64,000 nucleotides of DNA from Methanosarcinales archaeon Methan_01. GTDB taxonomy: Archaea; Halobacteriota; Methanosarcinia; Methanotrichales; Methanotrichaceae. The stretch's first letter is position 1; every line of letters starts with the position of its first letter. The notes below the pieces were generated by a model, which was given only the letters and a program-made list of their open reading frames with translations, ran no database searches and was not told where the DNA came from. Location: contig LUYE01000015.1 of NCBI GenBank assembly GCA_001602645.1, forward strand, positions 1 through 64,000, given 5' to 3'. Positions 9,606-30,646 of this stretch are shown one piece after another. The position numbers and the translations under genes are program-made.

Positions 9606-10172
9606 TCAGAGAACCCCCTTGGTGCTGAGGACGAGGGTTCCCTCCGTTCTCATCGCCTCCTTCAGGGCGAGCCCCAGGGCCTTGAAGATGATCTCGGCCT
9701 TGTGGTGGTCGTTTTCGCCCTCAAACCTCACGTGGAGGGTGATCCGCCCTCCTTCCGTCAGGGCTGAGAGAAACGCTGCCACGTCCTGAGTCGGGAGGTC
9801 CCCGACGAGGTCGCCGGCGAAGCTGCCCTTCATCACCAGGTAGGCCCTCCCGCTCAGGTCCAGCGCCGTCGAGGCGAGGGCCTCGTCCATGGGGGCCGTC
9901 GCCCAGCCGTACCTTTTTATCCCCCGCTTATCCCCCAGGGCGGAGGCGATGGCCTCCCCCAGGGCGAGGCCCAGGGCCCTCGACCTCTGGGCGGAGATCC
10001 CCCCTTCCGCCTTTGCCGACAGGTCGATCCCACCCATCCTCGCGAGGGCGCTCAGCATGTGGTCGAGGAACCCCGATCCGGATTCGAGGGCCGAGTCCCC
10101 TTGGCCATCCAGGTCCAATTTGACGACGGACCGGGCCCCGCCGACCTCGGACCTTCCATCACCCTTCCTCAC
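9606..10172 (-). CDS. hisB: Imidazoleglycerol-phosphate dehydratase homologue lacking one metal-binding motif
   Basis: HisB dehydrates imidazoleglycerol phosphate in histidine synthesis using a di-manganese site. Family features present: GFLDHMLSAL, RYGWATAPMDEALA, ALDLSGRAYLV, VGDLPT, ENDHHKAEIIFKAL (second HH..E motif) and the C-terminal phosphate-binding STKG. Missing: the first motif, normally DDHHTVEDVG after GD, is replaced by a shorter GGISAQRSRALG, and the metal-binding His of the family motif FA(K/R)HG is Met (LARMG). The N-terminal region is also a few residues short. No nearby frameshift restores the motif. GTG 10172, seven bases after GGAGG, is the better-spaced start; ATG 10190 is in frame. 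It lies about 80 bases after hisA. Activity is doubtful. Confidence 0.8.
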   Translation of the reverse strand: MRKGDGRSEVGGARSVVKLDLDGQGDSALESGSGFLDHMLSALARMGGIDLSAKAEGGISAQRSRALGLALGEAIASALGDKRGIKRYGWATAPMDEALASTALDLSGRAYLVMKGSFAGDLVGDLPTQDVAAFLSALTEGGRITLHVRFEGENDHHKAEIIFKALGLALKEAMRTEGTLVLSTKGVL

Positions 10173-10252: not shown

Positions 10253-10978
10253 TCAGGATAGGAGGGCTGAGAGGGCCACCCTGAAGTCGAGCTTCCCCGT
10301 ATATATCGCAGTCCCGACGACCGCCCCCGCCGCCCCAGCGCCCCGCAGGAGCAGGAGGTCCTCGACGGTGGTGACCCCCCCGGCGGCGACGACGGGGATC
10401 TCCACCGCCTCGACGAGCCTCCTCGTCGGCTCGGGGTCGATCCCCCGGACCTGCCCCTCGGTGTCGATGTTGGTGAAGAGGATAGAGCCTGCGCCCCGCT
10501 CCTGGAAGAGGAGCCCAAGCTCGATCGCCCCCTCCTCCAGGTCCCGCTGCCACCCCTCGGTGGTGACCTTTCCTCTCCTCACGTCCAGGGCGACCATCAC
10601 CCTCTCGGAGCCGAAGTCGGAAGCCAGCTCCTTTACCATATCGGGCCGGGCCAGGGCCGCCGTCCCCAGGATCACCCGGTCGACGCCTAGACCAAGGAGC
10701 GACGCCGCATCTTCCCGGGACCTGATCCCGCCTCCGACCTGGATGAAGAGGTCGAGGGTCTCGACGATCTCCTGGAGTATGGGGCCATTGATCCGAACGC
10801 CCTGGATCGCCCCATCCAGGTCGATGATGTGCAGGGTCGACGACCCCATATCGGCCCACCGGACCGCCTCGGCCAGGGGGTCGTCGAGGGATACCACCTC
10901 GGAGCCCGGGACGCCGCCGACGAGCTGGACGCATCTTCCGCCTCGGAGGTCGACGGCCGGAAAGAGATCGAAAGGCAT
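10253..10978 (-). CDS. hisA: Phosphoribosylformimino-5-aminoimidazole carboxamide ribotide isomerase
   Basis: HisA is the TIM-barrel isomerase of histidine synthesis. The product has 241 residues, the usual length. FPAVDLRGGRCVQLVGG carries the first catalytic Asp, VGGGIRSREDAASLL the first phosphate loop, and AAGGVTTVEDLLLL with AVVGTAIYTGKLD the second half-barrel counterpart. LFTNIDTEGQVRGID supplies the second catalytic Asp. It is followed by the hisB homologue on the same strand. The short gap between them contains repeated GTGGAGG segments that look like several potential ribosome sites. Confidence 0.93.
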   Translation of the reverse strand: MPFDLFPAVDLRGGRCVQLVGGVPGSEVVSLDDPLAEAVRWADMGSSTLHIIDLDGAIQGVRINGPILQEIVETLDLFIQVGGGIRSREDAASLLGLGVDRVILGTAALARPDMVKELASDFGSERVMVALDVRRGKVTTEGWQRDLEEGAIELGLLFQERGAGSILFTNIDTEGQVRGIDPEPTRRLVEAVEIPVVAAGGVTTVEDLLLLRGAGAAGAVVGTAIYTGKLDFRVALSALLS

Positions 10979-29425: not shown

Positions 29426-30568
29426 TCAGGTGACGATCTTATCGAGGGCGTCCTCTTCGAGAGCGATCTTCACCTCTCGCATCAGCCTCCTCCCCGTGCT
29501 CATGGACGTCCTCCAGAAGGCGTTCCCGTAGGGGTGGCCCACGGCCATGTGGACGTTCGTCCCGCCGCCGATCCGGGGGGCGACGTCGTAGATGGAGAAG
29601 TTCAGGTCCTTGTCGACGCAGGTCTGGAGGCAGAAGGGACCAATGATCCCGGGGCTGTAGTGGACCTTCGTCGCCTCGACGTATCTTTCGGCCAGGTCGA
29701 AGGCCTTCTCCAGGAGGGACTCGCGGAGGGTCGCTGAGTTGTGGCCGCAGACGGTGTACTCGGGGCTGATCTGGGCCTCGTTGAGGGTGAGCTGCTGGGG
29801 GGCGGGGATCCGGACGTGGCCGTCGAGGGAGGACTCAAACCGCCAGTCGATCCCGAGGAGCTCTATCCGGTCCAGGATCGGGGAGTAGAAGAAGTCGAGG
29901 TTGAAGACGGGGCCGATGACGTACCTCTCGATCCGCGCGAGGTCGAGGCCATCTTGGTCGATCACCCCGTGCTTGAGGAGGAGCTCCGACTTCTCCCGGT
30001 ACTCTTCGCTGCTCGCGGCGGTGAAGAACCCCCTCTCCAGGGTCTTGACGGCATGCGGCAGCTTCACCATCACCAGCTCGTCGATCTCCTCCGGCTCCAC
30101 CGTCTCGGGGAAGGGGAGGCCCGCCTTCTCCAGGATCCAGTAGTAGTCCTGCTCCTCCCCCCGCTCCTCGGACCGGAGGAGGTTTCTGCTCCCCAGGAGG
30201 GGGACCTCGAACTCGTCCTCCACCGAGTCGATCCCGCAGTAGGAGGTGAAGGACCGGTTGGGGACGAAGAGGACGCTCTTCGAGATGAGGGCGTCCTGCT
30301 GCTCGCTCCGGATCAGGTCAGAAAACCTGTTGAGGATCCGGACCTCGTCGACGACGCCGCTCGCGACCCTGCCGCTCACCCTCGTCGTCCTGAAGTACTT
30401 GGCGTAGGTCTTCTCCCTCCCCTTCTGGCATACTGCGAGGGTTCGAAATCCCTCCTCCACCGCCCCGTCACAGGTGTCCAGGGCGGAGTGGGAGGCGACG
30501 ACCCCTATCATCGGGCCGCGGAGGTCGTACCCCTCCAAAACCTCCAAAATTTTGCTCCGGTCTATCAA
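29426..30568 (-). CDS. purP: FAICAR synthetase PurP
   Basis: PurP is the archaeal ATP- and formate-dependent ligase that formylates AICAR. The product, about 380 residues, is an ATP-grasp enzyme. Motifs: GVVASHSALDTCDGAVEEGF, FVPNRSFTSYCGIDSVEDEF, VPLLGSRNLLRSEER, VMVKLPHAVKTLERGFFTA and GIIGPFCLQTC with APRIGGGTNVHMAVG. TTG 30568 aligns with homologues (LIDRSKILEVL) and has GGGGTG at a good distance; TTG 30583 is the longer option. Together with purN it adds to purine genes in the window. Confidence 0.93.
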   Translation of the reverse strand: MIDRSKILEVLEGYDLRGPMIGVVASHSALDTCDGAVEEGFRTLAVCQKGREKTYAKYFRTTRVSGRVASGVVDEVRILNRFSDLIRSEQQDALISKSVLFVPNRSFTSYCGIDSVEDEFEVPLLGSRNLLRSEERGEEQDYYWILEKAGLPFPETVEPEEIDELVMVKLPHAVKTLERGFFTAASSEEYREKSELLLKHGVIDQDGLDLARIERYVIGPVFNLDFFYSPILDRIELLGIDWRFESSLDGHVRIPAPQQLTLNEAQISPEYTVCGHNSATLRESLLEKAFDLAERYVEATKVHYSPGIIGPFCLQTCVDKDLNFSIYDVAPRIGGGTNVHMAVGHPYGNAFWRTSMSTGRRLMREVKIALEEDALDKIVT

Positions 30569-30646
30569 TTCTAAGCACCCCAAAATAATCTCGATCTCAA
30601 TTCTGGACTAGAGTGGTACTCACTTATCAAGGTGACCGTCATGGCA

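Follow-up and report, generated by a model that had tools for sequence, protein, structure and literature searches.

Within the 64,000-nucleotide window analysed here, the first 64,000 positions of contig LUYE01000015.1 from Methanosarcinales archaeon Methan_01 (Methanotrichaceae), we examined a gene on the minus strand that encodes a protein related to imidazoleglycerol-phosphate dehydratase (IGPD, the product of hisB). In a profile search the protein matches PF00475 with 158 bits (E 1.8e-46), well above the curated cut-off of 27, and its predicted fold is that of an intact IGPD (AlphaFold2 pLDDT 93.4, TM 0.93 to the Acanthamoeba enzyme 6FWH, whose residue numbers are used below unless stated). 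We refer to it as copy A, and to a second paralog described below as copy B. The features of the locus are as follows.

9606..10172, minus strand: copy A (HisB-A) of the putative split IGPD, an open reading frame of 188 amino acids with a GTG start (PF00475, AlphaFold2 model)
10253..10978, minus strand: hisA, on the same strand as copy A and immediately upstream of it; most of the family keeps the two genes linked
10056..10070, minus strand: FLDHM, whose His (10059-10061) is the Mn1 ligand H40 (36/36 copy A, 0/35 copy B; PMC6029752)
9969..10004, minus strand: GGISAQRSRALG, at the place of the canonical first (D/N)xHHxxE motif; H66 and H67 are gone in all copies A (alignment)
9912..9914, minus strand: Arg corresponding to R92 of the phosphate pocket, a residue of the third chain, C; present in A and deleted in B (alignment; PMC6029752)
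9873..9890, minus strand: MDEALA, whose Asp is D101, which holds the Mn2-bound water; present in A and lost in B (alignment; PMC6029752)
9774..9776, minus strand: Ala replacing the canonical Mn2 ligand H138 (the helix-3 His), lost in all copies A and retained in 35/35 copies B (alignment)
9693..9710, minus strand: DHHKAE, the second metal motif (H162, H163, E166), in 36/36 copies A (alignment)
9615..9626, minus strand: STKG of the C-loop (S191 and K193, third-chain phosphate residues), in A and not in B (alignment)

A preliminary description of this gene had listed FDHM-like, MDEALA, DHHKAE and STKG elements and had noted that the first HHxxE motif is missing. We find all four elements, the first reading FLDHM, and GGISAQRSRALG indeed stands where a canonical D(D)HHxxED would be expected. 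The deletion of six to seven residues proposed for this segment does not hold; the segment is mostly substituted, and is only about three to four residues shorter than in HisB from Methanosarcinaceae and Acanthamoeba. As had been stated, no local frameshift restores the motif, and HHxxE is found in no frame of 9901-10120. The His of FA(K/R)HG has become Met, also as described. However, this residue (H48 in 6FWH, H55 in Arabidopsis) does not bind Mn; its contact is with the phosphate, through a water molecule (PMC6029752). H48 is lost from both A and B in the sampled family and is kept in the canonical IGPDs of the class. A second loss of a true ligand, that of H138, had been overlooked.

The suggestion that another HisB might exist elsewhere in the genome proved correct as to its existence, on another contig, although this protein is likewise incomplete, in a complementary way. 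The second IGPD match lies on contig C57 (20843-21253; 110 bits against the PF00475 cut-off of 27), within an open reading frame of 180 amino acids (L002, 1414-1956). Copy B retains DHHTVED, the helix-3 His and an N-terminal RxTxET, has LLDEI in place of FDHM and DDWQKVE in place of DHHKAE, and lacks R92, R114, D101, K170 and the STKG C-loop. Within one genome A and B are only about 27% identical. Both fall below the NCBIfam HisB equivalog cut-offs (best scores of 190 bits for A versus 231 needed, and 127 bits for B versus 269 needed), and neither chain carries both (D/N)xHHxxE motifs, the second being present only in A and the first only in B. No third, canonical IGPD was found in the genome (G000) or in its relatives within the family. 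Across the family a divergent purP-like gene often neighbours copy B, an arrangement that is common and not universal. Two purP-like paralogs are present in the genome (L002 174-1244 and window 29426-30583; 39% identical), and it is one of these two that is often divergent from copy B. PurP uses AICAR, which is a by-product of histidine synthesis.

The source genome carries both copies, as do 33 of the 36 relatives sampled from the Methanotrichaceae, and a canonical copy is present in none. Named records matching copy A come from Methanothrix/Methanosaeta, Candidatus Methanocrinis and other Methanotrichaceae. The remaining three relatives have one copy each, of type A or B. In G017, a genome that is 99% complete, copy B occurs alone; a close hisA ortholog is absent as well as copy A, and an assembly gap is therefore likely. 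G014 and G036 carry copy A, and copy B is absent from their assemblies. For the three single-copy genomes taken together, assembly gaps and real variants are both admissible. One further observation concerns G083, a Methanotrichaceae genome (83% complete, 3% contaminated) with three IGPD matches.

We also sampled 150 genomes of the class and 119 of the phylum, and outside the family the same A/B split was not seen in either sample. Other families have a single copy, with the exception of a few genomes that have no match or a fragmented one. All eight Mn ligands are present in each of 20 single copies inspected, the lowest-scoring ones included. Two otherwise canonical single-copy HisB genes (L025 and L026, in G039 and G037; family f2, genus g12) contain a single in-frame TAG at an identical position (DDSCA-TAG-VAID), possibly a pyrrolysine codon or a site of TAG read-through. 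In five genomes of family f10 of the phylum, the single-copy HisB (L199, L200, L201, L202 and L206) lacks the STKG C-loop and retains all eight Mn ligands. In the Pyrococcus enzyme, catalysis is reported to require the C-loop (PMC4509728).

The solved structures offer a frame in which these losses can be read. IGPD active sites lie between subunits, on the two-folds of a 24-mer with 432 symmetry (PMC6029752). In 6FWH, Mn1 is bound by H67A', H40A, H162A and E166A, and Mn2 by H66A', E70A', H138A' and H163A; the phosphate is held by K170A together with R92C, R114C, S191C and K193C, and the water HOH1 by D101A (PMC6029752). Work on the Medicago enzyme similarly describes metals held by two subunits and phosphate by a third, and notes that in several other species removal of Mn causes IGPD to dissociate to trimers (PMC10978614). 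The metal sites therefore bridge trimers. From the naming of the chains, chain C would belong to the trimer of A.

We aligned 36 copies A, 35 copies B and 22 canonical sequences with 6FWH as the numbering reference; additional bacterial rows were left out for H138, where their column is shifted by one residue. The Mn ligands of the A side are kept in copies A and B, respectively, as follows: H40 in 36 and 0, H162 in 36 and 1, H163 in 36 and 0, and E166 in 36 and 23. D101 (36 and 0) and K170 (36 and 5) sort in the same manner, as do the phosphate residues R92 (36 and 0), R114 (36 and 2), S191 (36 and 0) and K193 (36 and 0), and all ten of these chain-A or chain-C residues are present in every one of the 36 copies A. 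The residues of the opposite side are kept in all 35 copies B, and in copy A are found 0 times for H66, H67 and H138, 10 times for E70 and 3 times for E14. In each of the 34 two-copy genomes, A has H40, H162, H163 and E166 and lacks H66, H67 and H138, while B has H66, H67, E70 and H138 and lacks H40 and H163. The union of A and B contains all 15 catalytic residues checked in 34/34 of these genomes, and the eight Mn ligands are complete in all 34 by residue count, their pairing across an A:B contact being our reading. All 14 residues with a published chain assignment sit in the predicted copy. Counted by residue (4 of A' versus 10 of A or C), such sorting has a chance of 1 in 1001; counted by linked motif (2 versus 6), the chance is 1 in 28, and the independent units are few. 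Taken with the crystal chain assignments, this partition would give copy A the roles of chains A and C, and copy B that of A'.

One residue is out of line with its published label. The Arabidopsis residue E21, equivalent to E14 of 6FWH, is the putative acid/base, and the E21Q mutant is inactive (PMC4509728). E14 is present in 35/35 copies B and lost in most copies A. In the same report, the Fig. 2 legend labels it Glu21A, on the same chain as E173 (PMC4509728), which is copy A's side and does not fit the split. A pseudo-two-fold relates the first half of IGPD to the second (PMC7284861), and in a profile comparison of the halves H40 pairs with H138 and the HHxxE motifs pair with each other (hhalign E 1.7e-9). 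Judged from this pseudo-two-fold rather than from coordinates, E14 should work with H138 and the first HHxxE, from A', because its rough counterpart in the second half, D101, works with H40 and the second HHxxE; E14 itself, in the first half, lies outside the span of the half-to-half alignment.

Both copies are under purifying selection, with dN/dS of 0.12-0.25 for A and 0.19-0.49 for B. In a quick tree, A and B each form one clade with support of 100, on long stems of 1.29 and 1.51 changes per column, respectively. Lateral transfer of one copy was considered and set aside in view of these two family-wide clades, although the long stems leave their placement relative to canonical HisB loose. 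Distances for A and B are correlated across genomes (Spearman 0.74), a correlation that shared descent alone could produce. As to the pathway, hisG and hisD are present in 10/10 genomes tested, and hisA lies upstream of copy A in most genomes of the family.

The family thus has two genes that are both under selection, present family-wide and divided exactly in their catalytic residues; reciprocal loss of interface-site residues is seen in two co-retained paralogs, with three assemblies holding one copy. Judging from these sequences, histidine synthesis in Methanotrichaceae very probably relies on an IGPD in which two diverged paralogs come together as a heteromer. At each active site between subunits, copy A would contribute H40, H162, H163, E166, D101 and K170 on one side, as well as the third-chain phosphate clamp (R92, R114, S191 and K193). 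The other side, with H66, H67, E70 and H138 and probably also the acid/base E14, would come from copy B. Neither copy by itself has all four protein ligands for either Mn, so the two would be obligate partners. Such a pair might have originated by gene duplication followed by a complementary, ligand-by-ligand split of the bimetal site.

We infer that A and B assemble physically, and from the geometry of the particle also their alternation, stoichiometry and activity. The 24-mer may be pictured as a cube with trimers on its eight corners, where each two-fold edge joins two corners and an alternate colouring is possible. Homotrimers of A and B could then alternate as 4 A3 + 4 B3 (12A+12B), and every two-fold would pair A with B, giving a complete site and a second site without any essential histidine. 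Because the sites sit on two-folds between trimers, this arrangement would complete the most sites. The enzyme is probably an obligate hetero-24-mer of this alternating A3/B3 kind, with tetrahedral rather than octahedral symmetry and with 12 working and 12 dead composite sites, although we hold this with less confidence than the heteromer itself. A variant in which the trimers are randomly mixed and the number of live sites varies is unlikely. The sequences settle what residues come from each copy and leave the arrangement of trimers free; however, only A keeps the third-chain residues R92, R114, S191 and K193, and mixing would presumably waste more sites.

Other readings depart from the heteromer altogether. 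Copy A might use its incomplete metal site for a new or modified reaction, and copy B might be a separate protein with another function, for example a regulatory pseudoenzyme. Each copy is without four of the eight Mn ligands (E being partly kept), and each is conserved on its own. However, in 34/34 genomes the residues retained by A and B add up exactly to a single ordinary site, half from each copy, all of them consistent with the usual chemistry, and the searches of these genomes turned up no further IGPD for the pathway step. The different chemistry raised in the preliminary description is thus unsupported, and we consider this reading improbable. Its other proposal, gene decay, fares worse. 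Were both copies decaying, with histidine taken up or the step performed by an unrelated enzyme, conserved catalytic motifs could be absent from each copy, as they are. But purifying selection acts on both, hisA, hisG and hisD are retained, all ten chain-A or chain-C residues persist in 36/36 copies A, and the predicted fold of A is normal, which together with the family-wide conservation makes decay very improbable. Least credible, to the point of being negligible, is a sequencing or assembly error at the site of the motif in this contig, an outcome for which the preliminary description had allowed along with a canonical motif in close relatives at this locus. The sequence does come from a single draft genome of 85 contigs, but no frame restores the motif and the same loss recurs across relatives: H66 or H67 occurs in 0/36 family copies A and in 0/25 named copy A records, two sets that share some species.

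The proposed heteromeric enzyme resembles known IGPDs (HisB; PF00475; PDB 6FWH, 4MU4 and 5DNL) in the predicted fold of copy A, the retained half-sites, the linkage of copy A to hisA and the pathway context. In contrast, the solved enzymes are homo-24-mers with both HHxxE motifs in each chain, and here there is one motif per paralog. In a survey of 535 IGPD sequences, both halves of each sequence carried HHxxE (PMC7284861), a generalisation that the Methanotrichaceae pair breaks. To annotate one of these genes in isolation, whether as HisB or as a defective HisB, would mislead. We found no earlier report of an IGPD split in the open literature, subscription papers being outside the scope of the search. 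If true, this would be an unusually clean natural case of a homomeric enzyme becoming an obligate heteromer, in which almost all the metal ligands are traceable to a single paralog, the one that the particle's two-fold geometry would lead one to expect.

In kind, the closest precedent is trypanosomatid deoxyhypusine synthase, where two paralogs of a homo-oligomeric enzyme are, alone, one impaired and one dead, and the heteromer is highly active (PMC3663545). That is a different enzyme in another domain of life, and its division into one dead and one impaired paralog, as described there, is unlike the even, ligand-by-ligand loss across the metal site in the IGPD split. Trypanosomatid AdoMet decarboxylase and its prozyme are likewise an obligate heteromer of paralogs that arose after duplication, as is proposed here. 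However, the prozyme activates by relief of autoinhibition and is not described as supplying half of a site (PMC5201418), the role that each copy would play in the Methanotrichaceae enzyme.
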